Assembly: GCA_030684555.1 (NCBI GenBank)
Contig: JAUXVN010000152.1
Coordinates: forward strand, 1-58,811
Length of the DNA stretch: 58,811 nt
From: Ignavibacteria bacterium
Lineage (GTDB): Bacteria; Bacteroidota; Ignavibacteria; Ignavibacteriales; Ignavibacteriaceae
Direction: 5' to 3'
The notes beneath the pieces were generated by a model that was given only the letters and a program-made list of their open reading frames with translations, was not told the origin of the DNA and did no database searches. The position numbers were made by a program, and so were the translations under genes. This document shows positions 7,829 to 58,692 of the stretch, piece by piece. Position 1 is the first letter of the stretch. Each line of letters starts with the position of its first letter.

Positions 7829-7839
7829 CACATTTTGAA

Positions 7840-7873
7840 AGGAGTCTATTTTTCTAATAGACTCCTTTTTTTT
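7840..7873 (+). terminator. Intrinsic terminator after the EF-G paralogue
   Basis: A perfect 11-bp stem (AGGAGTCTATT at 7840-7850 with AATAGACTCCT at 7856-7866), a 5-nt loop and a run of seven T (7867-7873). Confidence 0.93.
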
Positions 7874-7900
7874 AAATTCCAATTTAGTTAAGAGTGTTCT

Positions 7901-8401: not shown

Positions 8402-8406
8402 TAAAA

Positions 8407-8427
8407 AAGAGAAGTTAAACTTCTCTT
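8407..8427. terminator. Bidirectional terminator between HIT and MarR genes
   Basis: A 10-bp inverted repeat (AAGAGAAGTT / AACTTCTCTT) flanked by A-run and T-run, between two convergent genes ending at 8401 and 8450. It can serve both strands. Confidence 0.85.
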
Positions 8428-8449
8428 TTTTATCGGTATCGTAAGAATA

Positions 8450-8896: not shown

Positions 8897-8941
8897 TTAC
8901 ACTATCCCCTAAGGACTAATTATTACACTTAATTTATCTGA

Positions 8942-8959
8942 TTCAATAACACAATTGAA
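8942..8959. promoter_or_regulatory. Candidate MarR operator
   Basis: A perfect 6-6-6 inverted repeat TTCAAT-N6-ATTGAA, 46 nt upstream of the MarR start. MarR proteins typically bind such 16-20 bp palindromes over their own promoter. The identity of the bound protein is an inference. Confidence 0.35.
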
Positions 8960-9089
8960 CTTTTTTTTGTTACTGCATTGAGATTCGAATTAAATCAATA
9001 TCTCTGTTTAAAGAAATTCTTCATTTTTTTCTGAAATGAAGCATACTTTTATATCAAGTCTCTATTTCAGGAAACTGATAATTAAAAAC

Positions 9090-11002: not shown

Positions 11003-11003
11003 T

Positions 11004-12293: not shown

Positions 12294-12306
12294 TAACCAA
12301 AATTAA

Positions 12307-12864
12307 TTATTTAGCTGGAACTGAGTGTTTAATTTTATCCCATGATGTTTGGAAATTGAATTCTTTGAAAGTCGGACTTTCTGAATTATGGCAGGTAACA
12401 CAAAATTTTTCAATATCTTCAACAACGACTAATCCGTTATTAATTGCTTCTTCACGATTTTTCATAATTTTCATATCTTTATAATCAGCACCGGCGCCAT
12501 GGCAGGTTTCACATTGTACACCATCTTCAACTTTGAATTTTTTACCAATTAATGATGCATCTGCATTGTAACCTGAAGCGTGACAAACTAAACATGCTTC
12601 TGTTTTAGCTGCAGGAGTGGTAAAACCTTTTTCGGCTGCAATTTTATTTGCTTCTTCGGTAAGAAGGACTTCGTATGCTTTTGAATGTTTGCTGCTTTTC
12701 CAAATATCAAGCTGTTTTCCCTGTTTTTCTGATTTATGACACATGGTACAAGCATCAACGCCTATATAACCTCGTTTTTTGTCATCCAACTTCTTAAATG
12801 GATTTGAAGCTAAAAGTAAGATCGAAGATATAAGAAAGACGAAAAGAATTTTAGATAAATGCAT
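12307..12864 (-). CDS. Tetraheme cytochrome c554-like protein
   Basis: A 185-residue exported protein with signal peptide (ILFVFLISSILLLAS) and four CxxCH motifs: CTMCH, CLVCH, CETCH and CVTCH. The pattern CTMCHKSE...W..SKHSKAY...CLVCH...GVQCETCHGAG matches the cytochrome c554/c'-like family, periplasmic electron carriers. It is the promoter-proximal gene of the operon, preceded by a good SD (AAGGAG) and a promoter at 12910-12940. It is the most likely periplasmic shuttle feeding the 12-heme protein. Confidence 0.9.
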   Translation of the reverse strand: MHLSKILFVFLISSILLLASNPFKKLDDKKRGYIGVDACTMCHKSEKQGKQLDIWKSSKHSKAYEVLLTEEANKIAAEKGFTTPAAKTEACLVCHASGYNADASLIGKKFKVEDGVQCETCHGAGADYKDMKIMKNREEAINNGLVVVEDIEKFCVTCHNSESPTFKEFNFQTSWDKIKHSVPAK

Positions 12865-12909
12865 GTTTTCTCCTTTATTTAGTTTATTTCAAAATTCGAA
12901 TTTATTACT

Positions 12910-12940
12910 CAAAAATTATTCCAAAAAATGCTGGCGTCAA
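12910..12940 (-). promoter_or_regulatory. Promoter of the cytochrome operon
   Basis: Read on the minus strand: TTGAC (12940-12936) and AATTTTTG (12917-12910), one mismatch to TAnnTTTG at the common spacing. The predicted start near 12903 gives a leader of about 40 nt with SD AAGGAG before the ATG at 12864. The 305-bp gap up to 13169 is otherwise AT-rich, with only the divergent promoter of the hydrolase gene. Confidence 0.5.
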
Positions 12941-13131
12941 TTCATTGTATTAGGTACAAAATAAGGTTAAAAATCAATTCTCAATTAACAATTTTTAAGA
13001 ATTGAAAATTATTTCTATAATTTGAGAAAAATACTCTCACTATGAAACTACACATTAATTGAATCTTGTATCTTTTGGAATACACATAACGAAAATAAAC
13101 TTTTTTTATTTATTTCAAAAATTTGATTTTC

Positions 13132-13162
13132 TTGACTTTTCATCCCATTAATGGCATATTTG
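13132..13162 (+). promoter_or_regulatory. Promoter of the alpha/beta hydrolase gene
   Basis: TTGAC at 13132-13136 and CATATTTG at 13155-13162 (one mismatch to TAnnTTTG). The predicted start is at about 13168-13170, that is, on the ATG at 13170. No SD precedes the ATG, so a leaderless mRNA is plausible. Confidence 0.4.
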
Positions 13163-13169
13163 TCAATCT

Positions 13170-14000
13170 ATGAATAAAAATTATGTTCTAAATACTTCCG
13201 AAGGTAATAAACTGAATATCACAACTTTTGGAAATGGATTAGATGAAGAGAAATCTACTATTATCTTTGTTCATGGATTTAAGGGTTTTAAGGATTGGGG
13301 ATTCGGACCATATTTGGCAAGCTCTTTCTCAGACTTTGGGTTTAATGTAGTTACATTTAACTTTTCACATAACGGGGTTGGCGATAGTCTAACGGAATTT
13401 GTTGAACTTGATAAATTTGCTGCTAATACATTTTCACTTGAGATAAGTGAATTAGAGCAGGTTATTGAAGCACATCAGAAAAATTTATTTGAGTTTAATA
13501 AGAACGATAAAATATTTCTGTTAGGACATAGTCGTGGTGGAGCTATCGCACTATTGACTGTAGTAAAAAATCGAAATGTTACGGCAGTAGTTGTTTGGGC
13601 TTCTATTGCAAAATTAGATAGATATTCTGAACGACAAAAATTAAAATGGCGTGAGACAGGCTCTTTCGATATTATCAATACTAGGACCAAACAGACAATG
13701 AAATTGAATGTTTCTTTACTTGATGATATTGAAGCAAATAAGAATGATTTATTGAATATTGAAAAAGCTATCAGAGAATTTAATAGAGAATTACTAATCA
13801 TTCATGGTGAACAAGATTTAGCAGTCCCGGTTTCTGAAGCACAGTTACTTTATTCTTGGTCTGATAAATCAAAAACTCAATTTGAATTAATCCCTAATGC
13901 AGGGCACACTTTTGATATTAAACATCCATTTGAAGGTTCAAATCAAAAGTTTGAAAAGGTTATCAGTTTAACAAAAGATTTTTTACAAAAATTTAATTAG
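13170..14000 (+). CDS. Alpha/beta hydrolase
   Basis: A 276-residue cytoplasmic alpha/beta-hydrolase fold protein. Landmarks are the oxyanion segment FVHGFKGFKDWGF (residues 32-44), the nucleophile elbow LGHSRGGAI (near 117-125, Ser), the acid HGEQDLAVP (Asp near 215) and the catalytic His in AGHTF near 250. The residues match serine esterases, acyl-peptidase-like and lipase-like hydrolases. The substrate is not predictable. It is 18 nt upstream of bioY. Some carboxylesterases (BioH) work in biotin synthesis, but similarity here does not go beyond the fold, so that link is only suggested by position. Confidence 0.85.
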   Translation: MNKNYVLNTSEGNKLNITTFGNGLDEEKSTIIFVHGFKGFKDWGFGPYLASSFSDFGFNVVTFNFSHNGVGDSLTEFVELDKFAANTFSLEISELEQVIEAHQKNLFEFNKNDKIFLLGHSRGGAIALLTVVKNRNVTAVVVWASIAKLDRYSERQKLKWRETGSFDIINTRTKQTMKLNVSLLDDIEANKNDLLNIEKAIREFNRELLIIHGEQDLAVPVSEAQLLYSWSDKSKTQFELIPNAGHTFDIKHPFEGSNQKFEKVISLTKDFLQKFN

Positions 14001-14018
14001 CAAGGAGATTAACGAAAT

Positions 14019-14591
14019 ATGGAATCAATAATGAAATCTACATTTGTACTTCGTCTTTCGAAACTACTTTCACACAAACTAACTTTAGTTATTTCATTTG
14101 CCCTTTTAACTGCGGTTGCAGCACAAATAGCTGTTCCTGTAAAACCGGTTCCTTTCACTTTGCAAACAATGGCAGTAGTTCTCGCAGGAGCTTTCTTAGG
14201 TTCCAAAAGAGGATTCCAAAGTCAGATCATATATCTTGCACTTGGTTTAGTAGGTTTACCGGTTTTTGCGTTGAGTGCTGATGCTACATTCGGATTTGCA
14301 AGATTAATAGGTCCTACCGGCGGATATTTATTAGCATTCCCATTGGCTGCTTATTTGGTGGGTTTTATTATCGAGCGTTATAAGAATTACATTTCAGTAA
14401 TTGCTGCAATGTTTTTGGGAAATGTAGTAATTGTCGCATCTGGTTCATTTTATTTAGATGCTTTCTTTATTCATAACCTAAGTGAATCCCTAAAAGTTGG
14501 TGCTGTCTTATTTTCGGTTTGGACAGTTATAAAAGTTATGTTATCGGCTTCAATTTATTTTGGGATCAAAAAGAGTACTGAATCTAAATAG
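14019..14591 (+). CDS. bioY: Biotin transporter BioY
   Basis: A 190-residue integral membrane protein, the S component (biotin-binding subunit) of an ECF-type or solitary biotin importer. It shows the BioY signatures VPFTLQTMAVVLAGAFLGSK (near 44-63), YLALGLVGLPVF and GPTGGYLLAFPLAAYLVGF (near 101-119), with about six transmembrane segments. No ECF ATPase or EcfT gene is adjacent, which is common for BioY and means it either works alone or shares a distant energising module. A good SD (AAGGAG near 14002) precedes the ATG. No biotin synthesis genes are nearby. Confidence 0.93.
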   Translation: MESIMKSTFVLRLSKLLSHKLTLVISFALLTAVAAQIAVPVKPVPFTLQTMAVVLAGAFLGSKRGFQSQIIYLALGLVGLPVFALSADATFGFARLIGPTGGYLLAFPLAAYLVGFIIERYKNYISVIAAMFLGNVVIVASGSFYLDAFFIHNLSESLKVGAVLFSVWTVIKVMLSASIYFGIKKSTESK

Positions 14592-46289: not shown

Positions 46290-49200
46290 ATGCGTTCATT
46301 AAAACTTTTTCTATTTATTCAATTTGTGTTGCTGGTATACACAGGAGCTGTATTAGCTCAACCTTCGCTTATATCTCCAGCAAACGGGGCAACAAATATA
46401 GTATTGCCTGTAACACTAAGCTGGTCCGGAATCGCGAATTTTGATGTAGAAGTTCGCCAAGGAATTGCAGGTCCACTGGTATATTCAGAGTATAACACTA
46501 CTTCAACAAGTGTAGTTCTCTCTAATCCAACTTTGGATTATAATACAAATTACTATTGGTTTATTACAGATGTTGGTGGAACATCAATTAGGAATTTCAC
46601 AACTTCGATTGCACCTCCTGCAGTTCCGACTTTAGTAACACCTGCTGATTTAGCAACTGATCAATCTTTAACACCAACTCTGACATGGGCAGATGGAGGT
46701 GGTGGCACAGTAGAATTCTACCATGTGCAAGTTGCAAGCGATAATGGTTTTTCAACAATAGTTTTTGAGGATAATGCAGTTCCGGGTGTAACTACTTCAT
46801 CAGTAGCCTCCGGATTAGCTATTAACACGACTTATTATTGGCGGGTAAAAGCAGCCAATGTTAGTGGTGCTCAAAATTCTGCATTTTCGCCTTATCGTGA
46901 GTTTACAACATTAAATGGAGTTACACTGACTGGTCCTTCAGATGGAGCAACAGGTGTTGCTTTACCAATTTCATTTTCATGGACTGGTGCTGGCGGACCA
47001 TATTGGATACAAATTCAATTAGCCGGCGGAGCGTGGGCACCTCTTGTTTATGAAGATAATGCCGTTGTTGGTTCTCCGGTTAACGTTGGGACACCTGATT
47101 TAGCTTATAATACAGCTTATGACTGGCGTGTGAGTTCAAATGGTGGATCAACCTGGTCTTCAGCTTCATTTACCACACAAGGTCCTCCAAACGCACCTGT
47201 ACTTGATACTCCATTAGATGGAGCAATCAATCAACTTTTGAATTTAAATCTAAGTTGGACAGACGGTGGTGGTGCCTCTGTTGACACTTACGAACTTCAA
47301 TTAGCTACATCCAACACTTTTGGTGGCAGCATTGTTTATCAGAATGCAGCTATACCCGGTGTTACTACAACCTGGGCAGTTGGACCACTGATTTCTAATA
47401 CGACTTATTATTGGAGAGTTAGAGCAACAAATGATTTATCAGGGACTTCTGCTTTCTCTTCAACTTTTAGTTTTACAACTTTACAAGTTCCTGGAGTCCC
47501 GACATTACTACTTCCAGTTGACGGTGATACTTATGTGTTAAACACACCATTTTTCGTTTGGACACCAAATGTTAATGTTTTGGCTGATTCATTCTTAATT
47601 CAAATTACTCCTGATCCTACTTTTTATAATGTTCATTTAAATATTTATGTTACGGCATCCTACATTTTGGGGCAAGATCAAGGATACCAGCTTACCGTTC
47701 CATTAGCAACAGGATCACCTTATTATTGGAGAGTTAGAGGTTATAATGCTGCAGGATATGGTCCTTTTGCTGCACCATTTGACTTCCAGGTTGCAGCTTC
47801 AGGCGATTCTATGCCTCCAGTTCCAATTATTTCATATCCTCGCAACGGAGAGACAGCTTATTCTTTATCACCAGCTTTAAATTGGTATGTGACTCATTAT
47901 GCTGTAGGCGTTACATATGAAATAGAATTCAATAATGATGGAATATTCACGGAAATACCTACACAAACGGGTATTACTGATTATTTTTATCCAGCTCCAG
48001 GTTCTCCTCTTGCTAATAATACTACATATTATTATAAGGTAAGAGCTAATCGTGGTGGAATCTATTCTTTATGGTCAGCTCAAGCAGCTTTCACAACACT
48101 TCCTGTCGATGTTCCTTTTGTACCGATTCAGTCTTGGCCAATCAGTAACGTTACTGTTTGGTCTGATCCAACTCAGTTAAATTGGTACGTTAATGGGAAT
48201 AGCACAACTCTAACTTATGATATCGAATTTAATACAGATAACAATTTTACCGGTACGCCTACTTTAGGTTATGATAATATTAATGCTAATAATATAAATA
48301 TTCCAACCCCTGGAATTGGCGTTACATATTATTGGAGAGCCAGATCATTCAACGGTACAATTTACTCACTTTGGACTGCAACGGAACAATTCAGAACAGC
48401 CGGATGGTCAGGTTCAGCAACACCTATTCCTTCTACTCCGGTAAACGGGCATACTGTCTATTCAAATGATGTGACGATGGCCTGGTTCCTTCGCGGATAC
48501 AGTGCAAGTTATACTTATGATCTGCAATTTAGCACAGATGGAAACTGGGTTAATCCATTAACAACAACAACTTATTTAGGACTTTTAACACAAAGTCATA
48601 CCGAGAACGGATTAACTTTTGGAAGTACTTATTTCTGGAGAGTTCAATCAGTCTCCGGTACTACAACAAGTGCCTGGTCAACTACATCATCATTTACTGT
48701 TGTAGGTCCCAACGGATCAAACATACCGATACCATCCTGGCCTATTGGTAGCGCAAGTATTCCTTCTAGTACGGTTAAGTTACTATGGTACTTAAATGGT
48801 CCAATAGCTGGATTAATATTTGATGTTGAGTACAATACCAATGGTATTTTTTCCGGAACACCAACGGCTTCCGGGTTAACAGCAACTGAATTAGAACTTT
48901 TAGGACTTACAAATGGTGCAAATTATTTCTGGAGAGTTAGATCACGCTCATCAAACGGTGCTAGTACCTCCGCATGGTCTGTAACAGCAGATTTTGTTGT
49001 ACTATCCGGGTTATTAAGTCCGGTTCCAAGAATTGGTGCCCCAGACTTTGGTATAACATTAATGACTGTAGATCCTAACATATCCTGGTATGTACTTACA
49101 CCTTCTAATTCAACAAAGTACGAACTTGAATATGCAACTGATGCTAATTTCACCAATTCTACTATTGTTTCAAATTTAAGTGAGACGAATACAGTTTTAG

Positions 49201-49613
49201 CAAATCTAACTTCGGATGCTACTTATTTCTGGAGAGTCAGATCTGTGAATGGTGATGGAACTTATTCTGCATATTCACCTGTAGCTTCATTTATTCCAAC
49301 TGGAACAACATCCGTTGAGGACAATACTATTCCTGTTGATTTTGAGGTAGCTCAGAACTATCCTAACCCATTCAATCCATCTACTTCAATTAAATTTGCA
49401 CTTCCAACTAAAGAATTGGTTTCAATTCGTATTTATGATGTTCTTGGAAGAGAAATCAAGACATTATTAAACGATGAGAAAGAAGCCGGATATCATTCAG
49501 TTCAGTGGAATGGTGATAATCAATATGGTCAAAAAGTTTCCTCAGGCACTTACATTGTTCGTGTTAATTCAGGTTCAAATGTAAAGACTATGAAAATGAC
49601 CTTAATGAAATAG
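46290..49613 (+). CDS. T9SS-secreted protein with ten FN3-like repeats
   Basis: A 1107-residue exported protein with a signal peptide ending near ALAQ (residues 20-23). It is built from ten tandem modules of about 100 residues. Each opens with P-x-L/I-x-x-P-x-x-G or similar and closes with an aromatic strand (YYWFITD, YYWRVKA, YDWRVSS, YYWRVRA, YYWRVRG, YYYKVRA, YYWRARS, YFWRVQS, YFWRVRS, YFWRVRS), the FN3-like fold. A T9SS sorting domain follows (NYPNPFNPSTSIKFALP near 1025, then IRIYDVLGREIKTLL). There are no catalytic motifs. It is probably an adhesin, surface layer or spacer protein. The gene has the strongest promoter in the window, a long leader and its own terminator, so it is likely abundant. 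Confidence 0.85.
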   Translation: MRSLKLFLFIQFVLLVYTGAVLAQPSLISPANGATNIVLPVTLSWSGIANFDVEVRQGIAGPLVYSEYNTTSTSVVLSNPTLDYNTNYYWFITDVGGTSIRNFTTSIAPPAVPTLVTPADLATDQSLTPTLTWADGGGGTVEFYHVQVASDNGFSTIVFEDNAVPGVTTSSVASGLAINTTYYWRVKAANVSGAQNSAFSPYREFTTLNGVTLTGPSDGATGVALPISFSWTGAGGPYWIQIQLAGGAWAPLVYEDNAVVGSPVNVGTPDLAYNTAYDWRVSSNGGSTWSSASFTTQGPPNAPVLDTPLDGAINQLLNLNLSWTDGGGASVDTYELQLATSNTFGGSIVYQNAAIPGVTTTWAVGPLISNTTYYWRVRATNDLSGTSAFSSTFSFTTLQVPGVPTLLLPVDGDTYVLNTPFFVWTPNVNVLADSFLIQITPDPTFYNVHLNIYVTASYILGQDQGYQLTVPLATGSPYYWRVRGYNAAGYGPFAAPFDFQVAASGDSMPPVPIISYPRNGETAYSLSPALNWYVTHYAVGVTYEIEFNNDGIFTEIPTQTGITDYFYPAPGSPLANNTTYYYKVRANRGGIYSLWSAQAAFTTLPVDVPFVPIQSWPISNVTVWSDPTQLNWYVNGNSTTLTYDIEFNTDNNFTGTPTLGYDNINANNINIPTPGIGVTYYWRARSFNGTIYSLWTATEQFRTAGWSGSATPIPSTPVNGHTVYSNDVTMAWFLRGYSASYTYDLQFSTDGNWVNPLTTTTYLGLLTQSHTENGLTFGSTYFWRVQSVSGTTTSAWSTTSSFTVVGPNGSNIPIPSWPIGSASIPSSTVKLLWYLNGPIAGLIFDVEYNTNGIFSGTPTASGLTATELELLGLTNGANYFWRVRSRSSNGASTSAWSVTADFVVLSGLLSPVPRIGAPDFGITLMTVDPNISWYVLTPSNSTKYELEYATDANFTNSTIVSNLSETNTVLANLTSDATYFWRVRSVNGDGTYSAYSPVASFIPTGTTSVEDNTIPVDFEVAQNYPNPFNPSTSIKFALPTKELVSIRIYDVLGREIKTLLNDEKEAGYHSVQWNGDNQYGQKVSSGTYIVRVNSGSNVKTMKMTLMK

Positions 49614-49684: not shown

Positions 49685-50353
49685 ATGTTCATAAAATTGA
49701 TAATAATAGTTTGTTTGGTATTATATAGTACTTTAATTATTCATCCCCAAAGTGATACAACACTATACAAAAAGAATCCGCTTTACATACAAGAAATGGG
49801 GCTATACGAAATTTATAAAACCAAACAAGCTAATATCGTTATGCTTGGTGATTCACATATTCAGGGTGCAAATTGGGGTGAATTACTTGGTAGAAATGAT
49901 GTTGTTAACCGGGGAATTACGAGTGATGTAATTGAAGGTTATATTTCTAGAATATATTATGTTTTAAAACTAAAACCTAAAGTTTGCTTTATAATGGGTG
50001 GACTTAATGATGTATATATGTGGATTCCAATTCAAACAATATTCCAGAACTACGTTTCACTTGTTAATACTCTAAAAGAAAAAAAAATAAAAGTTGTTAT
50101 TCACTCTGCTCTTTATCCTGCTGAAGGGGCTGATAATCCTAGTAATAGAAATTTATTAGTTGAAGAACTGAATAGTTTATTAAAAGGTTTTGCGGAAAAA
50201 GAAAATATTCCATACATCGATCTAACTAAAACTATGTCAAGAAATCTTTTCACAAAAAAAGAGCTTATAAATCCATGGTTTCACCTTAATGCAGACGGGT
50301 ATAAGCTTTGGACAAATGAGGTTGAAAAAGTTTTGAAAAAACTCAGGATATAA
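49685..50353 (+). CDS. Exported SGNH/GDSL hydrolase-like protein
   Basis: A 222-residue protein with signal peptide (residues 1-22). SGNH block I is VMLGDSHIQGANW (Ser near 57), block II VNRGITSD, block III MGGLNDVYMW (Gly, Asn near 100-103) and block V WFHLNADGY (His near 199). The Asp normally three residues before this His (DxxH) is not present, since the sequence is NPWFH. The active site may thus be a dyad, or the acid may come from elsewhere. Family members de-esterify lipids or deacetylate sugars. It stands just upstream of the two SGNH-ACP-MBOAT cassettes and may remove or edit the group that they add. Confidence 0.8.
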   Translation: MFIKLIIIVCLVLYSTLIIHPQSDTTLYKKNPLYIQEMGLYEIYKTKQANIVMLGDSHIQGANWGELLGRNDVVNRGITSDVIEGYISRIYYVLKLKPKVCFIMGGLNDVYMWIPIQTIFQNYVSLVNTLKEKKIKVVIHSALYPAEGADNPSNRNLLVEELNSLLKGFAEKENIPYIDLTKTMSRNLFTKKELINPWFHLNADGYKLWTNEVEKVLKKLRI

Positions 50354-50480
50354 CACAATTCATTTTGTGAGGGAAAGAGTATTCATTTTGTTTATTCTTG
50401 ATTCCTATATAGATTAATTATTAACTTACTACAACACATTTTTTAAAATCGTGGCTTTATTAGTCATCAATGAGCACATT

Positions 50481-51857
50481 ATGCTATTCAATAAACATCT
50501 TAAATATTTAAACCAAAAAAACATAATTATTTTATGTTTTACATTATTCTTCCTTGTCACTCTTTTTCTAATTGAGGTATCAGAAAATAGTTCAATTCAG
50601 AGAATGGATAATTCGTCTGCTAAAAAGAATGAATTAGCTAACCAAAAAACAATTATGAGGGCAGGATTTTCGCACAGTGAAATGCTTTCTGTGTTAGAAA
50701 ATATGGCAGATGTTTATTTTTCTAATAATGGTCTTATTCAAACAAATCTCGGCAAAGATATTCCGATTTCTGGAAATCTTGATAATATGAAGTATTTTTT
50801 TAATGCGCTTAAGGAATCAAAAACCAGAAAAATCAGAATAGCAGATTATGGTGATTCCGGGCATGAAGGAGATTTAATTTCAGGTGATTTACGGGAATAT
50901 TTACAAAAACAATTTGGTGGGAACGGAGTCGGTTTTTTATCTATAACATCTCAGGATATAATGTTCAGGTCGTCAACCAAACATTCATTTTCTAATAACT
51001 GGAAAACTGTCTCGGTACTTTCCGGTAAAGATAATAATATTCGTTTTGGTATGAATGGATTTGTCTCTGTTCCGGAACAAGCAGGAAGCTGGGTAATGTA
51101 TGAAGCTGGTGAACAGTTTTCGCAGTCATCAAACTTTAGATATGCAAAACTTTACTATTCAAATGCTAAAGAAGGAATGATTAAATATTCATTGGATGAT
51201 GGTCAGGAAAAATCAATAAAATTGAGTACTGCAAAGGGTGTTCAAGAATTAGTTATAGATCTATTAAAACAAACAAAGAAAATTAAAATTACTACAACAA
51301 TGGCAAATCAAGCTCATTTCCATGGTGTCAGTTTGGAAGGGGAGAGTGGTGTTTACGTTGATAATTTTGCTTGGCGGGGAAATACCGGTATTTCATTTAG
51401 GGATATCCCCACTGAAATTCAAAAAGATTTTAGAAAATATTTTGATTATAAATTAATCATTTTAACATTTGGTGCAAATATGCTTAGTGCAGGTAATGTT
51501 AATTACCCATGGTATGAATCACAAATGACAAAAGTTATTGAAGAACTTAAAACAGTTTTTCCGGAGACAAGTTTTTTAATGGTTAGTTTGGGAGATAAAA
51601 GTATTAAAAGAGGATCGAATTTTGTTACTCACCCAAGCGTCAAAAGAATGATTGATACTCAGAAAAAAATTGCTGAAAAGACTAATATCTCATATTGGAA
51701 TAAGTTTGAAGCTATGGGAGGTGAAAATTCAATGGTCGATTGGGTTAATTCAAACCCACCATTAGCGGCTGTAGATTATGGTCATTTAACTTATACCGGT
51801 TCCAAAAGAATTTCGGAATTAATAGCAAGAGCATTAATATCAGGTTCTCGAAAATAG
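50481..51857 (+). CDS. Membrane-anchored SGNH acyl-transfer protein, cassette 1 (DltD/PatB-like)
   Basis: A 458-residue protein with one N-terminal TM helix (IIILCFTLFFLVTLFLIEV, near 14-32) and an extracytoplasmic domain with SGNH motifs. These are ADYGDSGHEGD (Ser near 131), a beta module of about 100 residues, TFGANM (Gly, Asn near 335) and VDYGHLTYTG (Asp and His near 430-435, DxxH). The catalytic Ser, Asp and His are all present. The anchored SGNH layout is that of partner proteins (DltD, PatB, AlgJ/X) which pass an acyl group from a membrane MBOAT enzyme to a polymer. The ATG at 50481 is preferred over the GTG at 50451. It is 25 nt before the ACP gene. It is paralogous to 54499-55884. 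Confidence 0.75.
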   Translation: MLFNKHLKYLNQKNIIILCFTLFFLVTLFLIEVSENSSIQRMDNSSAKKNELANQKTIMRAGFSHSEMLSVLENMADVYFSNNGLIQTNLGKDIPISGNLDNMKYFFNALKESKTRKIRIADYGDSGHEGDLISGDLREYLQKQFGGNGVGFLSITSQDIMFRSSTKHSFSNNWKTVSVLSGKDNNIRFGMNGFVSVPEQAGSWVMYEAGEQFSQSSNFRYAKLYYSNAKEGMIKYSLDDGQEKSIKLSTAKGVQELVIDLLKQTKKIKITTTMANQAHFHGVSLEGESGVYVDNFAWRGNTGISFRDIPTEIQKDFRKYFDYKLIILTFGANMLSAGNVNYPWYESQMTKVIEELKTVFPETSFLMVSLGDKSIKRGSNFVTHPSVKRMIDTQKKIAEKTNISYWNKFEAMGGENSMVDWVNSNPPLAAVDYGHLTYTGSKRISELIARALISGSRK

Positions 51858-51882
51858 TTAACAAATTTTATTTAAGGCGAAT

Positions 51883-52119
51883 ATGATCACTGATAGATTA
51901 AAAAAAGTAATACTGAAAGAATTGAATCTTGAAGATTTTAATTTTGCCGATGATATGATGGCAAATCAAGTTCCCGGTTGGGATTCATTAAATCATATGA
52001 ACATTATAATGGCAGTTGAAAACGAATATGGATTTAAATTTAAAGCTCTTGAAATATTAAAGATGCGTAAAATAGGTGATTTGCAGAAGGCTATTGATTT
52101 GAAAATATCAGATCAATAA
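51883..52119 (+). CDS. Acyl carrier protein, cassette 1 (DltC-like role)
   Basis: A 78-residue acidic carrier protein. The phosphopantetheine attachment Ser is in PGWDSLNHMNII (Ser near 37), followed by helix III (ENEYGFKFKALEILKMRKIGDLQKAID). It is not the housekeeping AcpP, whose motif is LGADSLDTVE and which sits with fatty-acid genes. Being wedged between an SGNH partner and an MBOAT, it should present a thioester-bound acyl or aminoacyl group to the MBOAT, as DltC does for DltB. No cognate ligase or phosphopantetheinyl transferase is in the window. An SD-like AAGG precedes the ATG. Confidence 0.88.
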   Translation: MITDRLKKVILKELNLEDFNFADDMMANQVPGWDSLNHMNIIMAVENEYGFKFKALEILKMRKIGDLQKAIDLKISDQ

Positions 52120-52129
52120 TTCGGATCTA

Positions 52130-53635
52130 ATGGTTATGAGCTTTGCAATTGATTGGGATAAATTATTAAACTTATTTTTATATAATCCTCGTGATCCTAT
52201 TTTATTTGGTTCAAGTTTTTTTCTTTTCTTTTTTGCATTGGTTTTATTTTTCCAGTTTTCTTTCCGAAATAACACTTCTTTAAGAATTTACTCCTTAATA
52301 CTCCTTTCGGTTTTCTTTTATTACAAAGCCTCAGGTGGTTATGTTATGCTGCTTTTCTTTGTGACCATGTTAAATTACTTTTCAGGCAAATTACTATTTC
52401 AATCAAAGAATCCGACACAAAAAAATATCATATTCACAATTTCCATTATAATTAATCTTTCATTACTTGCATATTTCAAATACACAAATTTTTTTATTCA
52501 AATAATTAATGATTTACATCTTGGCAATTTGGATGCTCTTCAAATATTTTTACCTATAGGTATTTCATTTTTTACATTTAGGGCAATGAGTTATCTGATT
52601 GAGATTTATTATGAATTTATAGAACCGACTGACAGTTTCAGAGATTTCACTCTCTTTATTTTCTTTTTCCCGACTGTATTGATGGGACCGATTGATCGCT
52701 CATCGACTTTTTTACCGCAAATTAAGGAATCTCTTAGTGTCAGTAGAGCCTCAATTGGTATTGCTGTTTTTTTATTATCAACCGGATTAATTAAGAAATT
52801 TGTAATTGCTGATTATGTGAATCTAAATTTCACATCAAGGGTATTTGAATTTCCAAATCGTTTTACTGGTACAGAAAATCTCCTTGCTGTGTATGCGAAT
52901 GCTTTACAATCTTATTGTGATTTTTCAGGATATACTGATATGGCTCTTGGAATTGGTTTGTTATTAGGTTTTCAACTGACTGAAAATTTCAATAGACCAT
53001 TTAAAGCCACCAGTGTTGCTGATTACTGGAGACGTTGGCATCTTTCATTGTCTAACTGGCTTCTTGATTTTGTATTCAAACCTGTCAATGTTAGATTTAG
53101 ACGATTTAGAAAACTGGGATTAATAATTGCTATTACGACTACTTTTTTCTGCGTAGGATTATGGCATGGTCCAAATTGGACTTTTATTATTTTTGGTTTA
53201 TTGCACAGTTTTTATTTAGTCTTTTCAATGCTGACTCAAAAACTTAGAGATTCTTTCTATAAAAAAATTGGAATTAAGAAAAATAGACTATTTAGATTTT
53301 TCCAAATTGTTTTCACACTTCATTTATTAGTCTTTACGGCTCTACTATTCAAAGCTCCATCAGTATCCGATGCTTTTATAATTGTTGAGCAAATATTTAC
53401 TTTTCTAAAACCGGAAGTATTCCCACAATTTATTTTAGCATACCCTGAAATTTTCGGATTGATAATATTTGGTTATGTAATTCATTTCTTACCTGATTCA
53501 CTTGAGCTTAAGACAAAAGAGCTAATGTCAAAGCTGCCTATAATTAGTTTAGCGATAATACTGACATTAATAATCTGGATTGTAATTCAGGTAAAATCAG
53601 CAGGAATGCAGCCTTTCATTTACTTCAAGTTTTGA
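52130..53635 (+). CDS. MBOAT family O-acyltransferase, cassette 1 (DltB/AlgI-like)
   Basis: A 501-residue polytopic membrane protein with about 11 TM segments. MBOAT landmarks are FFPTVLMGPIDRSSTFLPQI (near 182-201), YCDFSGYTDMALGIGLLLGF (near 261-280), and NFNRPFKATSVADYWRRWHLSLSNWLLD (span near 285-312). VGLWHGPNWTFIIFGLLHS (near 342-360) follows, with the invariant MBOAT His in LWHG. The family moves acyl groups across the membrane to polysaccharides or teichoic acids (AlgI, PatA, DltB). It starts 10 nt after the ACP stop, so the three cassette genes are one transcript. The next gene is convergent, one base away. Confidence 0.93.
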   Translation: MVMSFAIDWDKLLNLFLYNPRDPILFGSSFFLFFFALVLFFQFSFRNNTSLRIYSLILLSVFFYYKASGGYVMLLFFVTMLNYFSGKLLFQSKNPTQKNIIFTISIIINLSLLAYFKYTNFFIQIINDLHLGNLDALQIFLPIGISFFTFRAMSYLIEIYYEFIEPTDSFRDFTLFIFFFPTVLMGPIDRSSTFLPQIKESLSVSRASIGIAVFLLSTGLIKKFVIADYVNLNFTSRVFEFPNRFTGTENLLAVYANALQSYCDFSGYTDMALGIGLLLGFQLTENFNRPFKATSVADYWRRWHLSLSNWLLDFVFKPVNVRFRRFRKLGLIIAITTTFFCVGLWHGPNWTFIIFGLLHSFYLVFSMLTQKLRDSFYKKIGIKKNRLFRFFQIVFTLHLLVFTALLFKAPSVSDAFIIVEQIFTFLKPEVFPQFILAYPEIFGLIIFGYVIHFLPDSLELKTKELMSKLPIISLAIILTLIIWIVIQVKSAGMQPFIYFKF

Positions 53636-53636
53636 T

Positions 53637-54293
53637 TTATTCCAAAGTTTTTTCCATCAATATTTTCGTGTCTGAGGGTAGAATTTCAAGAGCGGATTTA
53701 TCCTCAATTGTTTTTTCAAGTACAAAGTGAAAACCTATTTTTTCATAAGCACGACATGCTTGAGGATTTGTTTTTATCGGTCTGAGTTGAACTTTCTTTA
53801 AAGTCGGATTTTTCTTAATATAGTTATCAATGTGTTTGAGAATTAGTTTCCCAATTATTCCCTGACCTCTATATTCCGGTTTTACATATGCGTTCACTAT
53901 TTGTAATGTAGCCGGTTCACGTTCAATATTGATTTGATGGAGCATAGGGAAGTATTTTCTTGCTTTAGTGATTCGCTCACCACCCAATTCAGTAAGAAGG
54001 AGATTACCTTTAATTACAGCACTCTCCAAATCATCTTCTGCTTCAATCCATGCACAGCATGCACCTGCAACAGAGTTACCAACTTCTGCAATTAAATATT
54101 GAGAATAACACAATTCCTGCCCGGGAAAATCTAACAATATGATATTTTTGAGATGATTTTTTACTTCATCAATTGATAATGAAAATATTGTAGAATAACT
54201 AAGTTTATCGGTATGACTTTTTTCTGCTTCAATAATTGTTTCAATAATGAAATCAATATCGGTTTCTATTGCCTGACGTATAATAAGATTCAT
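53637..54293 (-). CDS. GNAT family acetyltransferase-like protein
   Basis: A 218-residue protein with GNAT fold. Motif A (VNAYVKPEYRGQGIIGKLILKHID, span near 133-156) has the acetyl-CoA loop R-G-Q-G-I-I-G, and motif B is NPQACRAYEKIGFHFV (near 180-195). The N-terminal half carries an insertion (near 70-125) larger than the usual GNAT domain. The substrate is unknown. It is inserted on the opposite strand between the two acylation cassettes and converges on MBOAT 1. It is cytoplasmic and does not resemble the adenylating ligase that would load the carrier protein. Confidence 0.8.
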   Translation of the reverse strand: MNLIIRQAIETDIDFIIETIIEAEKSHTDKLSYSTIFSLSIDEVKNHLKNIILLDFPGQELCYSQYLIAEVGNSVAGACCAWIEAEDDLESAVIKGNLLLTELGGERITKARKYFPMLHQINIEREPATLQIVNAYVKPEYRGQGIIGKLILKHIDNYIKKNPTLKKVQLRPIKTNPQACRAYEKIGFHFVLEKTIEDKSALEILPSDTKILMEKTLE

Positions 54294-54324
54294 ATAAAGC
54301 CTTTATAATATATATTTCAGATAT

Positions 54325-54357
54325 ATTAGAAGTTTTATTTTGTCACAAGCTTCTAAT
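54325..54357. promoter_or_regulatory. Inverted repeat between divergent genes
   Basis: A perfect 8-bp repeat ATTAGAAG / CTTCTAAT with 17-nt spacer, 31 nt upstream of the GNAT gene start and about 80 nt upstream of the cassette 2 promoter. It may be an operator. No protein can be assigned. Confidence 0.3.
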
Positions 54358-54414
54358 CATAATTTCACTAAAAATAACATACGAAATTTATTGATAAAAC
54401 CATTATTATATCAC

Positions 54415-54444
54415 TTTATTATAGAAAAAAGTTTAGTATCTTTA
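54415..54444 (+). promoter_or_regulatory. Promoter of acylation cassette 2
   Basis: TTTA (54415-54418) and TATCTTTA (54437-54444, one mismatch to TAnnTTTG) with an 18-nt spacer. The predicted start near 54451 leaves a leader of about 48 nt with SD AAGGAA before the ATG at 54499. Cassette 2 therefore appears to have its own promoter, separate from cassette 1. Confidence 0.45.
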
Positions 54445-54498
54445 CAAAGTTATTATTATGATTACCGCTATACAATTAAACAACAAAAAAGGAACACT

Positions 54499-55884
54499 AT
54501 GAATAAAAATAAAAATAATTCTTCTCCATTGATATTAGTGGGGTTAACGATTTTATTTTTAATTGGATTATCATTTTTACCAAAAGATATAACAGTTGCC
54601 GGATATGATATAAAACCGGTTGATTTGTTTATGGACATCAAACCGGATTCTTTATTAGATTATTCTGAAGATAAAACTGATGTAATGAATAATGAATTTT
54701 TATCAGCATCAGTAAATTTAACTTTGATTCATAACCTGTTTACTGAAAAAATAAACTTGAACAATATTGCTTTTTCATCAATTCCACCTGCGTCAGAAAT
54801 TACCGGGAATGTTTCCCAAATGAGTTTTTATTATAACGCATTGAAACAAGCTAAAACAAAATCGGTTCGTATCGCACATTTTGCTGACTCCGGAAATGAA
54901 GGTGATTATATTACTGCTGATGTACGAAGAGCATTTCAGACCAAATTTGGCGGTAATGGCGTCGGTTTTATGAGCATTACAGGGCAGGATATAAATTTCA
55001 GGAAAACAACAAAACAATCATTTTCTGATGATTGGAAAACCATTTCAGTATTAACAACTAATCCGGATAAAAAACCACTTGGTATTAGTGGATTTGTAGC
55101 TATTCCTAAATCAGGAAGTTGGGTAAAGTATGAAACAACACCACATTATAATTATTTGGAAAAATATAAAACGGTTAGACTTTTTTATAGTAATGCAAAA
55201 GCTTCTTCCATTAAATATTCATTCGATAATGAATCGGATAAAACTGTTCAATTAAAACCCGGAACAGGTGTTCAAGAATTAGTTTTAACTCCATCCTCAG
55301 GTTCAGCTTCGTCAGTAAAGATAACGACAACTATGGATGATCAAGCGAGTTTCTTTGGTGTTAGTCTTGAGTCGTCTCCAAATGGTGTTTTTATTGATAA
55401 TTTCCCGTTGAGAGGGAATACTGGCGTTTCTATTAAGGACATTCCCGATAATATTATGAATGATTTTAATAGAATTTTCGATTATAAGCTAATCATTTTA
55501 CAGTTTGGTTTGAATATGGCCGGTTCAAAGAATTATAATTGGTATGAACAAGCTATGACTAAAATGATTAAAGATCTTAAAAAGAATTTTCCGCAAACGA
55601 GTATCTTGCTTGTTGGTGTCGGTGATAAAGGTGTTAAAAGAGGATCAAAGTTTATGACTGATCCTAGCGTTCCATTAATACTTGAAGCACAAAAAAGAAT
55701 TGCCGCAAGTGCTGATGTTGCTTTTTGGAATATATATGATTCAATGGGGGGGGAAAACGCAATTGAGCGCTGGGTAAATTCAAATCCTCCATTGGCATTA
55801 AAGGATTATGTCCATCTTACAACAGAAGGTTATAAAAAGCTTGCCGAACTTATGACCGAAGCCTTATTAAAGTCTTATAAATAA
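54499..55884 (+). CDS. Membrane-anchored SGNH acyl-transfer protein, cassette 2 (DltD/PatB-like)
   Basis: A 461-residue paralogue of the protein at 50481. It has an N-terminal TM helix (LILVGLTILFLIGLSFL, residues 9-25), then SGNH block I AHFADSGNEGD (Ser near 131, with Ala replacing the Gly of GDS). FGGNGVGFMSITGQDI follows and is nearly identical to cassette 1. Later come LQFGLNM (near 334) and KDYVHLTTEG (DxxH near 433). The Ser/Asp/His set is intact. An upstream in-frame TTG at 54340 is rejected: the promoter at 54415-54444 and the SD AAGGAA favour the ATG at 54499. It lies 33 nt before its ACP. Confidence 0.75.
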   Translation: MNKNKNNSSPLILVGLTILFLIGLSFLPKDITVAGYDIKPVDLFMDIKPDSLLDYSEDKTDVMNNEFLSASVNLTLIHNLFTEKINLNNIAFSSIPPASEITGNVSQMSFYYNALKQAKTKSVRIAHFADSGNEGDYITADVRRAFQTKFGGNGVGFMSITGQDINFRKTTKQSFSDDWKTISVLTTNPDKKPLGISGFVAIPKSGSWVKYETTPHYNYLEKYKTVRLFYSNAKASSIKYSFDNESDKTVQLKPGTGVQELVLTPSSGSASSVKITTTMDDQASFFGVSLESSPNGVFIDNFPLRGNTGVSIKDIPDNIMNDFNRIFDYKLIILQFGLNMAGSKNYNWYEQAMTKMIKDLKKNFPQTSILLVGVGDKGVKRGSKFMTDPSVPLILEAQKRIAASADVAFWNIYDSMGGENAIERWVNSNPPLALKDYVHLTTEGYKKLAELMTEALLKSYK

Positions 55885-55917
55885 CAAAAGTATTATTAAA
55901 TCAATAAGGGATAAATT

Positions 55918-56151
55918 ATGATTTCAGAACAATTAGCAAATGTAATTTGTAAAGAATTAAAATTACAATCTTTTGACTTTCAGGATGATACTACCGCTGA
56001 TCAAGTTCCCGGTTGGGATTCATTAAGTCATATTAATATAATCTTAGCAATAGAAAAAGAGTTTGCAGTTAAATTTAAAGGAATTGAAATTCTTAAGGCA
56101 AAGAATCTTGGTGATTTGCAAAGGTTAGTGGATTCCAAATTGGTTAAGTAA
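55918..56151 (+). CDS. Acyl carrier protein, cassette 2 (DltC-like role)
   Basis: A 77-residue carrier protein with phosphopantetheine Ser in PGWDSLSHINII (near 37). By eye about 42 of 74 aligned residues are identical to the cassette 1 carrier, and 27 consecutive nucleotides around the Ser are identical (51965-51991 and 56000-56026). The helix II face after the Ser differs (NHMNIIMAVENEYG versus SHINIILAIEKEFA), so each may recognise its own MBOAT. It is preceded by an AAGGGATAA-type SD and followed by a strong hairpin (56176). Confidence 0.88.
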   Translation: MISEQLANVICKELKLQSFDFQDDTTADQVPGWDSLSHINIILAIEKEFAVKFKGIEILKAKNLGDLQRLVDSKLVK

Positions 56152-56175
56152 TTTAAAAGAATATCTATTAATTAA

Positions 56176-56209
56176 GGATGCTTTATGTTAAAAAGCATCC
56201 TTTCTTTTT
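56176..56209 (+). terminator. Terminator-like hairpin between ACP 2 and MBOAT 2
   Basis: A perfect 9-bp stem GGATGCTTT (56176-56184) / AAAGCATCC (56192-56200) with a 7-nt loop, followed by a T-rich tract TTTCTTTTT (56201-56209). An ATG at 56185, in frame with MBOAT 2, sits exactly in the loop, with an SD-like AAGGA (56174-56178) that runs into the 5' arm. The element may attenuate transcription into MBOAT 2 or gate its translation. Cassette 1 has no counterpart. Confidence 0.7.
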
Positions 56210-56229
56210 ATTATCAAATGCAGGTGTTT

Positions 56230-57729
56230 ATGTTTAATTGGATTGATGTAGAAAAATTAGTTGGTTTGTTCAGCTTTGAGCAATATGATCCCGTAGTATT
56301 TGGCACAAGTTTTTTCCTTTTCTATTTTTTCGCATTTCTATTTGTTTTTAGGATATTGGCTAAAACAAAGGATTTGAAAGTTTGGACAATAATTTTCTTT
56401 TCAATCTTCTTCTATTATAAAGCAGCAGGGATTTATTTTTTATTACTTGTTTTTTCTGCCATTTTCAATTTTTACATTGGTCAATGGATTTTTAATTCAA
56501 AGAATGAGAATTTCAGAAGGATAATATTTTTCGCTTCAATTTTTGTGAACCTCGGGGTTTTGGTCTACTTCAAATACACAAATTTTCTTCTCGAAATATT
56601 AACTGATCTTCAAGTAGGACAATTTAATCCGCTTACTATATTTCTACCAATCGGAATTTCCTTTTACACGTTCAAAGCTATGAGTTATGTTATTGAGATT
56701 TACATGGAAATGCTTGAACCTGTAAAAAGTCTAAGAAATTTTTCCCTGTTTATTTTCTTCTTCCCAAATGTACTCATGGGACCTATTGATAGAGCTTCCG
56801 AGTTTTTACCTCAAATCGAAGGCGATTTTTCGGTTTCAAAAGAAGACATTGGTAGAGCGGTATTTTTGATAATTGTTGGACTTATTAAAAAACATGTTAT
56901 TGCAGATTATATCGGACTCAATTTTGTTGATCGTGTTTTTGAAGTTCCGCTTAGATTCACCGGAACAGAAAATCTATTGGCAATATATGGATATTCTATT
57001 CAAATTTATTGTGATTTTTCCGGTTATACAGATATGGCATTGGGTATTGCACTCTTACTTGGTTTCAAGATGAGGAAAAACTTTAATTTCCCATTTATGG
57101 CAAATAGTGTCATGAATTATTGGCAAAGATGGCACATGTCATTATCGTTATGGTTACTTGATTATTTATTTAAGCCGCTTCAAATGGGTCTAAGAAATAT
57201 GAGAGGGTTTGGAAATGCTTTTGCAGTTCTTATTACTTTTACTACAGTCGGTTTATGGCACGGGGCAAATTGGAACTTTGTAATTTTTGGATTGATTCAT
57301 AGTGTATTCATAATATTTTCAATGTTAACAAAACCTTTACGGACAAAATTTTATGATAAAGTAGGATTAGCTAATTCAAAAGTTGTTAATTTTTTTCAGA
57401 TTGTTTTTACTTTTCATTTGTTAATGTTCTCGGGTGTTTTTTTTAGAGCAATATCGTTTGACTCGGCATTAGAAGTTTTTCATCAGGTGTTCACTTTTAT
57501 GAAACCTGAAGTTTTCCCACAATTTCTGGAATCAAATACATTTATTATTATACTTATCGTACTTGGGTATATTGGTCATTTTACACCACAGAAAATTGTT
57601 GATAAAATAACCTCATTAATAACCCGGATGCCGGTGGTGATGCAAGCATTGTTAATTGCAGTGGTTATTTGGATAGTAATACAAGTTAAGTCGGCAGATA
57701 TTCAGCCGTTTATATACTTCCAGTTTTAA
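56230..57729 (+). CDS. MBOAT family O-acyltransferase, cassette 2 (DltB/AlgI-like)
   Basis: A 499-residue polytopic protein. Landmarks match cassette 1: FFPNVLMGPIDRASEFLPQI, YCDFSGYTDMALGIALLLGF, NYWQRWHMSLSLWLLDYLF and VGLWHGANWNFVIFGLIHS with the conserved LWHG His. The ATG at 56230 (MFNWIDVEKLVGLF) aligns with the start of MBOAT 1 (MSFAIDWDKLLNLF). The in-frame ATG at 56185 would add 15 residues and lies in the loop of a hairpin. The different upstream layout (78-nt gap with hairpin instead of 10 nt) implies different expression of this copy. Confidence 0.92.
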   Translation: MFNWIDVEKLVGLFSFEQYDPVVFGTSFFLFYFFAFLFVFRILAKTKDLKVWTIIFFSIFFYYKAAGIYFLLLVFSAIFNFYIGQWIFNSKNENFRRIIFFASIFVNLGVLVYFKYTNFLLEILTDLQVGQFNPLTIFLPIGISFYTFKAMSYVIEIYMEMLEPVKSLRNFSLFIFFFPNVLMGPIDRASEFLPQIEGDFSVSKEDIGRAVFLIIVGLIKKHVIADYIGLNFVDRVFEVPLRFTGTENLLAIYGYSIQIYCDFSGYTDMALGIALLLGFKMRKNFNFPFMANSVMNYWQRWHMSLSLWLLDYLFKPLQMGLRNMRGFGNAFAVLITFTTVGLWHGANWNFVIFGLIHSVFIIFSMLTKPLRTKFYDKVGLANSKVVNFFQIVFTFHLLMFSGVFFRAISFDSALEVFHQVFTFMKPEVFPQFLESNTFIIILIVLGYIGHFTPQKIVDKITSLITRMPVVMQALLIAVVIWIVIQVKSADIQPFIYFQF

Positions 57730-57765: not shown

Positions 57766-58692
57766 ATGAAGAAGAGCTTACATAATAACGCCCACTTGCA
57801 AGGTTCACTATTATTAAGCTTTTTAGAAAATATAAAGAAACTATACCCTTGGTATTCTAACTATCTGGTAAATTATATTCCGTTTGATGATTTAAATTAT
57901 TGTACAAATGTAGAAATATTACTTAATAAATTTAATTCATTTTTGAAAGAAAATGGAAAAGATTTCAACTACGGTATTGATTGTTATACAAGAAAGATAT
58001 CTGATCTTTTAGATGAAGAACTAAATTTTTTAAGAACAGGTAAATATAGATATAACTCCTTTGACGAAGTTAAAGAAAGAGTATATAACAATATTGAAAT
58101 AATGGAATATCATACATTTGGATTGTTGCTTATGGAAATATTGCATCAAAATAATTCTAAAAAAATTAGTGATTTTAAAGACTCTTTAACAGAAAATAAA
58201 GATAGAATTAAAAACTATTTAGAAATTGCAGGTGGTCATGGATTATTTGTATGGGAAGCAAATAGAATTTTAGGTAAACATATTAATGTTGATTTTATTG
58301 ACATAAGTGAAACATCAATTAATATTGCAAAATCTTTTTTAAAAGGGATTAAAGTTAATTTTATTTGTCAAGATATATTCAGATTTGTAACAGAAATGAA
58401 GTATGATTTTATTGTTGCGGGTGAAGTACTTGAACATCTTGAAAAACCAGAAGAATTATTATTTAAAATTAAAGATCTTTTAAGTGAAGATGGATTATGT
58501 TTTATCTCTGTCCCATTAAATATTCCTGCGATAGATCATATATACCTTTTTAGAAATGAGCAAGAAATTAAAAATATGATTGTGAATTGTAAATTAAATA
58601 TAAAATATGATCATATAGCCCCAGAATATTTAAGTATTACTAAAGGGCAAAATAATTTAGCGCAATCATATTGGGCATTATTATCAAAATAA
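57766..58692 (+). CDS. Class I SAM-dependent methyltransferase
   Basis: A 308-residue protein. The N-terminal 150 residues are helical and unrecognised. The SAM domain starts at YLEIAGGHGLFVWEA (near 154-168, glycine-rich motif I), continues with FIDISETSINIAKSFLKG (motif II acid near 180-182), ICQDIFRF, and the motif IV region VAGEVLEHLEKPEELLF (near 224-240) with ISVPLN. The Leu-Glu-His core resembles small-molecule or sugar/lipid methyltransferases. It is more AT-rich than its neighbours. It is 36 nt after MBOAT 2. Whether it methylates the transferred group, the acceptor or something unrelated is open. Confidence 0.8.
   Translation: MKKSLHNNAHLQGSLLLSFLENIKKLYPWYSNYLVNYIPFDDLNYCTNVEILLNKFNSFLKENGKDFNYGIDCYTRKISDLLDEELNFLRTGKYRYNSFDEVKERVYNNIEIMEYHTFGLLLMEILHQNNSKKISDFKDSLTENKDRIKNYLEIAGGHGLFVWEANRILGKHINVDFIDISETSINIAKSFLKGIKVNFICQDIFRFVTEMKYDFIVAGEVLEHLEKPEELLFKIKDLLSEDGLCFISVPLNIPAIDHIYLFRNEQEIKNMIVNCKLNIKYDHIAPEYLSITKGQNNLAQSYWALLSK

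Follow-up and report, generated by a model that had tools for sequence, protein, structure and literature searches.

The question raised by this locus is what feeds an MBOAT acyltransferase whose gene lies directly behind that of an acyl carrier protein (ACP). The stretch analyzed here (the window; 58,811 nucleotides from an Ignavibacteria bacterium, contig JAUXVN010000152.1 of assembly GCA_030684555.1) is the whole of contig C38 in a 4.34 Mb genome assembled in 152 contigs, and the contig ends at 58811. It carries two tandem cassettes, at 50451-53635 and 54340-57729, each with genes for a membrane-anchored SGNH protein, an ACP and an MBOAT in that order, with a GDSL hydrolase gene before them, an opposite-strand GNAT gene between them and a methyltransferase gene after them. 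An earlier, sequence-only reading of the window had described two cassettes of the same order, the upstream hydrolase and the downstream methyltransferase, and all of these genes are present (the cassette genes at 50451-57729), as is the GNAT gene, which it had missed. We consider it fairly probable that the cassettes encode a carrier-dependent MBOAT-SGNH system for envelope acylation, in which a DltA-like ligase encoded on another contig, C11, would load the ACPs together with a GNAT, the MBOAT would shuttle the acyl group, and the Ape1-like SGNH protein would transfer it. Genomes, contigs and loci are cited by our handles (G, C and L) where they have to be told apart.

Carrier proteins and their MBOAT and SGNH partners

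We mapped the genes of 139 neighborhoods with a custom open reading frame caller that removes overlaps greedily, and found the gene family in loci named Melioribacter, Melioribacteraceae, Ignavibacteria and Bacteroidetes. MBOAT genes encoding 400 amino acids or more numbered 125 and were classed by what precedes them: 57 lie behind a ligase and an ACP, mostly with an SGNH gene ahead (SACB, which includes ligase-ACP-MBOAT runs that are truncated at the end of a contig or lack a gene), 22 behind an SGNH gene and an ACP with no ligase (SCB, the type of the window), 19 behind a single SGNH gene without an ACP (SB) and nine behind two SGNH genes (SSB). The 18 in other settings (otherB 13, BB 3, AxB 2) are kept separate in the counts or mentioned by class, and removal of two identical MBOATs left 123 for the tree and motif counts.

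The sequence-only reading had made its proposal of carrier-dependent, Dlt-like logic depend on synteny in relatives and on ACPs that can be phosphopantetheinylated. The cassette order is conserved in many relatives, and the phosphopantetheine serine is kept in all 77 cassette ACPs (56/56 SACB, 21/21 SCB), which suggests that these proteins can carry the prosthetic group and is consistent with the proposed logic. Both window ACPs contain this serine in a GWDSL motif, ACP1 with a Pfam score of 17 bits, under the cut-off of 20.8, and a single AcpS match was found in the genome. The best NCBIfam matches of the cassette ACPs are general AcpP models, and the NCBIfam matches of the window ACPs include no DltC model.

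The MBOATs are also consistent with a carrier. In Dlt, DltC contacts helix HC of DltB through M302, V305, I306, M309, K312 and R317, according to PMC11035591. In the helix that aligns to HC, GGN or GGS (scored as GG[NS] within reach of R[WF]H) occurs in none of the 79 ACP- or ligase-linked MBOATs (SACB 56, SCB 21, AxB 2) and in 29 of the 31 SB, BB and SSB genes, which were classed as lacking an ACP from their neighboring genes only. One of the two exceptions, L070, has an ACP; the other is L071. The otherB genes have the motif in 10/13 cases, and the remaining three come from genomes that carry fatty acyl-AMP ligase (FAAL) genes on a different contig, in two cases within SGNH-FAAL-ACP runs. 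A stricter count of PLGGN-like motifs (5/19 SB) was dropped as too strict. By these alignments, the carrier-side helix appears to separate ACP-linked genes from genes classed without an ACP. In a quick tree of the MBOATs, the ACP-linked genes fall on one side with an SH-aLRT value of 94, just under the 95 mark, and SCB genes are placed among SACB genes; the tree requires two changes of the SCB label, which would fit two losses of the FAAL or one loss followed by a regain.

Three related genomes (L188, L189 and L190) have tandem MBOATs of the GGN type behind one SGNH gene, with no ACP.

The genome has no PF03062 match other than MBOAT1 and MBOAT2 (E 0.001). The predicted model of MBOAT2 has a DltB fold (TM-scores 0.65/0.78 to 8jem; mean pLDDT 85.5, below 60 at the shuttle motif), and the TIGR04091 (LTA_dltB) scores, 185.6 bits for MBOAT1 and 175.5 for MBOAT2, are below the curated DltB cut-off of 375. 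PMC12148441 reports that PatA acetylates a tyrosine within the FXYXXF motif at its own C-terminus, that this motif is borne by DltX in Dlt, and that MBOAT-SGNH pathways other than Dlt have no similar carrier. In the family studied here the motif lies at the C-terminus of the MBOAT, with Y..[FY] in 121 of 123 proteins and both misses in genes cut by contig ends; no separate DltX microprotein with FXYXXF was found, and the stand-alone anchor peptides of some relatives (see below) do not end in it.

The SGNH partners have the Ser, Asn and Asp-His residues seen in PatAB-type systems; those of SGNH1 include Ser136 (50856-50858) and Asp442 to His445 (51774-51785). Among SGNHs longer than 400 amino acids, the catalytic Ser and Asn are kept in 89/89, Asp in 85 and His in 87. 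PF13472 scores are below the cut-off of 32.9 bits for both window proteins (24.6 and 28.2), and at E 0.01 Pfam gives GDSL models, NCBIfam gives nothing, and no DltD model matches. A profile built from the two window SGNHs matches Ape1, and the predicted model of SGNH2 has the Ape1 fold (TM-scores 0.57/0.81 to 4k3u; mean pLDDT 82.9). Ape1, a peptidoglycan O-acetylesterase, shares the SGNH fold with its inserted beta domain but differs from the window proteins, which have an N-terminal membrane anchor and are paired with an MBOAT. Because they are anchored and so paired, they are more likely transferases than esterases.

The anchor motif VDLFMDIKPDS is kept in SGNH2 and missing in SGNH1, with the same split between the G445 copies. 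At nine loci, the SGNH slot holds only a single-transmembrane peptide of 55-87 amino acids that resembles the SGNH2 anchor, without a catalytic domain (L149, L151, L153, L155, L157, L170, L182, L145 with 87 amino acids and L215 with 76). Most of these peptides bear a VDLFMDIKPDS-like motif, and they may be separable docking peptides.

The PatA-type C-terminal motif and the Ape1-like SGNH could also belong to an ordinary PatAB-like system that uses acetyl-CoA, with the ACPs as bystanders or structural components, and the order does include related MBOATs with no ACP next to them, namely most of the 19 SB genes. We regard this explanation as improbable, given that an ACP precedes the MBOAT in 77 different genes and always keeps its serine, that the carrier-side helix is changed in every ACP-linked MBOAT, and that these MBOATs lie together in the tree, with the support given above.

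Candidate loaders of the carrier

The sequence-only reading had found no adenylating ligase and had called the donor unknown. The contig ends at 58811, and the absence of a ligase from the window therefore means little. Most relatives with an ACP cassette carry a ligase of a different kind inside it, and in the window's genome two DltA-like ligases are encoded in a cluster whose counterpart in a sister species lies next to the cassettes.

The ligase within relatives' cassettes is a FAAL, which precedes the ACP at 57 of the 79 SACB (57) and SCB (22) genes. An SGNH-FAAL-ACP-MBOAT cassette is present, for example, in a cultured relative, on a contig titled Melioribacter roseus (L036). In NCBIfam, two SACB-slot ligases that were tested matched fatty-acyl-AMP ligases below the curated cut-offs; ligases of this slot also match AMP-binding models in Pfam and FAAL structures by profile, and their A5-A6 spacing is 68 residues in 5/5, versus 38 in one acyl-CoA synthetase of the window's genome. 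Matches to FAAL at 1e-60 were found in 77 of the 164 genomes of the order, five of them weak (6e-70 to 1e-63) and possibly other ligases; the window's genome has none at that threshold. With one FAAL as query, its best match is 29% identical and looks like an ordinary acyl-CoA synthetase, and we rejected the relatives' FAAL as the loader in this genome. Three of the 18 SCB genomes keep a FAAL at another site, where the stretch seen has no cassette genes.

At seven loci, two adjacent FAAL-type ligases precede one ACP (SAACB; L146, L147, L149, L153, L172, L182 and L184). Locus L218 (G419:C58) has a piece of an adenylation ligase, a 262-amino acid gene, an ACP, a 295-amino acid gene and a more distant MBOAT.

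Clustering the neighbors of 20 SCB loci brought out a recurring GNAT and a 500-amino acid AMP ligase. The copy of this ligase in G445, a genome of the same genus, matches amino-acid adenylation domains (2.3e-87) and PRK04813 (DltA; 283 bits versus a cut-off of 476). The two ligases of the window's genome, at C11:5640-7136 and C11:7876-9360, are 77% and 50% identical to it. FD[LF]S is present in 10/10 aligned ligases, and the four genomes with two complete copies each have one FDLS and one FDFS; we take its Asp to be the residue of adenylation domains that binds the amino group. Bases 174-9360 of C11 encode, in order, LuxC, LuxE, an AMP ligase, an SDR, a second ACP, a GNAT, a ligase, a GNAT and a ligase. 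The same order is found in G445, starting within ten bases of the end of the cassette 2 MBOAT gene, so that C38 and C11 are probably neighbors, with the methyltransferase gene probably between them.

Across the order, the DltA-like ligase is found in 19 of 164 genomes, and these comprise 14/18 with SCB cassettes, 1/60 with a FAAL cassette and 4/86 others (Fisher's p 5e-13, with relatedness ignored and genome sets compiled by hand from result tables). At 1e-25, the GNAT subfamily is present in 2/395 genomes of the phylum, the window's and G345; judged by handle, no other genome in that sample is SCB. Of 35 GNATs in 24 loci (some overlapping) picked for the module, 28 have a ligase no more than three genes away. 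The window GNAT is probably part of this loading module. In some relatives the association is closer. The ligase gene of G418 (L151) starts 15 bases after the MBOAT gene on the same strand. In G456, two GNAT and two ligase genes on the opposite strand directly follow the MBOAT gene, and a second ACP is absent. The Flavobacteriales contig L070 has a single ligase-GNAT-ACP-SGNH-SGNH-MBOAT run (7283-14245), and the DltA-like version is therefore not confined to the order of the window. Finally, an FkbH gene follows the MBOAT gene in G419, directly, and in G449, behind a 139-amino acid gene; G419 also has a DltA-like ligase piece elsewhere. By gene context, at least three types of loader appear to accompany one kind of cassette.

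Several observations weigh against loading by the C11 ligases. They are not encoded on the window contig, and in G345 the ligases are on C10 and the cassette on C6. The genomes are related, and the association of ligase and cassette therefore rests on few independent events. Four of the 18 SCB genomes have no match to a DltA-like ligase (G404 and G410, whose cassette contigs soon end; G408, which is 79% complete; and G449, which has FkbH). Single-cassette genomes likewise hold two ligases, and thus ligase number does not track cassettes. The evidence that the MBOATs are carrier-fed also has points against it: the judgment of ACP absence from near neighbors; L071, with a carrier-type helix yet no ACP within 12 kb; and the replacement of the first F of FXYXXF in 10/21 SCB genes, not including those of the window. 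By our reading of the alignment, K317, N320, V321 and R324 in the window replace M302, V305, I306 and M309 of DltB; the DltC-contact residues are not kept one by one, and therefore docking need not be the same and the helix is remodeled rather than copied from DltB. The C11 cluster, moreover, has its own ACP, LuxC and LuxE, and thus its ligases may serve another product.

The last point leads to an explanation that we consider unlikely, if less so than acetyl-CoA feeding: the cassettes are carrier-dependent, the C11 cluster is a separate small-molecule pathway, and the ACPs are charged by fatty acid synthesis or another unlinked enzyme. The SDR and the second kind of AMP ligase in the C11 cluster, the different contigs of cluster and cassette in G345, the general AcpP matches of the cassette ACPs and the lone FAALs of three ligase-less genomes would all fit this explanation. 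It accounts less well for the ligase right after the MBOAT in G418 and the ligase and GNAT before the ACP in L070, with no LuxC or LuxE in the stretches seen, for the two GNAT-ligase pairs of G456, or for a GNAT family whose two phylum genomes both have ligase-less cassettes. We retain the C11-encoded ligases as the likelier loaders.

A proposed acylation route and known systems

In the route we propose, AcpS would add phosphopantetheine to each ACP, and a DltA-like ligase from C11 would adenylate an amino acid and load it onto the ACP. The GNAT of the loading module would probably N-acylate the loaded amino acid, and the cargo is therefore likely an aminoacyl or N-acyl-aminoacyl group. The loaded ACP would dock on the carrier-side helix of its MBOAT, which would hand the acyl group to the Tyr of its own C-terminal FIYF(K/Q)F at the periplasmic face. 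The Ape1-like SGNH would then accept the group on its Ser and esterify a cell-envelope glycan, peptidoglycan or another polysaccharide. Our best guess for the cargo is amino-acid-derived in this genome and a fatty acid in the FAAL type.

This route resembles Dlt (DltA-DltC-DltB-DltX-DltD) in having a putative adenylating ligase, a carrier with a phosphopantetheine serine, an MBOAT of predicted DltB fold, a membrane-anchored SGNH and a Tyr motif for the acyl shuttle. It differs in the position of that motif, in the lack of DltX, in the Ape1-like SGNH, in the loader, which by gene context is a FAAL, a DltA-like ligase with a GNAT, or FkbH, and in the host, presumably Gram-negative. A true Dlt system that places D-alanine on a teichoic-acid-like polymer would explain the DltA-like ligases (283 bits to PRK04813 for the G445 copy), the DltB fold and the small carrier, but DltA and DltB scores are far under the curated cut-offs, no DltD model was matched, the motif is fused to the MBOAT and the commoner loader in the order is FAAL; of the explanations considered, this seems to us the least probable. 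The Dlt analogy of the sequence-only reading thus holds for the logic of the system, and fails for the C-terminal motif and the SGNH fold, which are nearer to PatA and to Ape1/PatB than to DltB and DltD.

With PatA/PatB peptidoglycan O-acetylation, the window system shares the FXYXXF motif on the MBOAT and the SGNH partner. PatA uses acetyl-CoA and no carrier (PMC12148441), whereas carrier and loader genes are present here, and the donor-side helix has other residues in place of the GGN seen in the compared MBOATs without an ACP. The ligase-carrier pair of SACB cassettes is also a feature of FAAL-ACP pairs in polyketide and lipopeptide pathways, but the SACB carrier stands beside an MBOAT rather than a polyketide synthase or nonribosomal peptide synthetase. 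By these feature tests, the window system is Dlt-like at the carrier end, PatAB-like at the transfer end and a member of neither.

We tentatively suggest, with less confidence than for the route itself, a third general design for envelope acylation. A conserved ACP, a shuttle-bearing MBOAT and an Ape1-like SGNH would be combined with interchangeable loaders (FAAL, DltA-like ligase with N-acylating GNAT, or FkbH) to attach species-specific acyl groups (fatty, N-acyl-aminoacyl or glyceryl), and the carrier-side helix of the MBOAT would tell carrier-fed from CoA-fed members. If this is true, an MBOAT of the PatA type that is served by a carrier and by several kinds of loader breaks the rule of carrier-less MBOAT-SGNH systems, and shows how cells extend surface acylation chemistry past acetate and D-alanine. 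The helix difference would provide a sequence signature for finding carrier-fed MBOATs, making what feeds an MBOAT testable. Searches of one open-access library returned no work joining MBOAT, SGNH and acyl carrier protein, and none joining fatty acyl-AMP ligase and MBOAT; judged by title and the start of the abstract, FkbH with MBOAT gave only two papers, on cyanobacterial peptides, and no carrier-fed MBOAT-SGNH system of Gram-negatives was recognized.

Origin of the two cassettes and other features of the window

The sequence-only reading had stressed the doubled composition. The doubling is real, and the doubled order is also present in G445 (L129), so that the arrangement is not due to chance, but it is not the defining feature, given that relatives with a single cassette also carry two ligases. 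Two parallel lines with two acyl groups, as that reading had proposed, are therefore no more than one possible interpretation. Two genomes show the cassettes in tandem; in G407, two SCB MBOATs are split between separate short contigs. The copies are 48% (SGNH), 56% (ACP) and 55% (MBOAT) identical by BLASTP, or 45%, 55% and 55% over whole alignments. MBOAT1 clusters apart from MBOAT2, together with sequences from relatives where a single cassette was seen (bootstrap 100), and each window copy pairs with its G445 counterpart. Recent tandem duplication was rejected, with a p value of 0.00059 in the approximately unbiased test when the four window and G445 copies were held together. By these trees the two cassettes are old paralogues.

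Table 1. Features of the cassette region, in window coordinates.
Feature	Position	Strand	Basis
GDSL0, GDSL/SGNH hydrolase, 222 amino acids	49685..50353	+	Pfam PF13472 5.7e-22
SGNH1, membrane-anchored Ape1-like SGNH protein	50451..51857	+	profile match to Ape1; triad conserved
ACP1, 78 amino acids, phosphopantetheine Ser35 (51985-51987) in GWDSL	51883..52119	+	Pfam, NCBIfam, alignment
MBOAT1, DltB-like, 501 amino acids, His304 and His346	52130..53635	+	Pfam PF03062 2.5e-24; DltB by profile
MBOAT1 carrier-side helix (residues 316-330) FKPVNVRFRRFRKLG, matched with HC of DltB in the alignment, without GGN	53075..53119	+	profile alignment
MBOAT1 C-terminal putative acyl-shuttle motif FIYFKF	53615..53632	+	motif function per PMC12148441
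GNAT, subfamily found beside DltA-like ligases	53637..54293	-	Pfam; neighborhood comparison
SGNH2, transmembrane anchor and VDLFMDIKPDS motif	54340..55884	+	predicted fold Ape1
ACP2, 77 amino acids, Ser35 (56020-56022)	55918..56151	+	Pfam, alignment
MBOAT2, 514 amino acids, predicted DltB fold and further C-terminal helices	56185..57729	+	Pfam, NCBIfam, structure prediction
MBOAT2 carrier-side helix FKPLQMGLRNMRGFG	57169..57213	+	alignment
MBOAT2 C-terminal putative acyl-shuttle motif FIYFQF	57709..57726	+	sequence
Class I methyltransferase, membership doubtful	57766..58692	+	Pfam PF13489 1.9e-14

Comparison with L129 suggests that the true starts of the SGNH genes lie downstream of the first ATG/GTG/TTG, probably at the ATG near 50481 for SGNH1 and near 54499 for SGNH2. 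The methyltransferase has no homologue in the 139 neighborhoods compared (BLASTP 1e-8) and was rejected as a cassette member for this reason. Homologues of GDSL0, in contrast, sit directly 5´ of many cassettes in the gene maps. Further upstream, at 46290-49613, the window encodes a 1107-amino acid protein with fibronectin-like repeats and a C-terminal sorting domain, which by single-linkage clustering has homologues near 10 other SCB loci.

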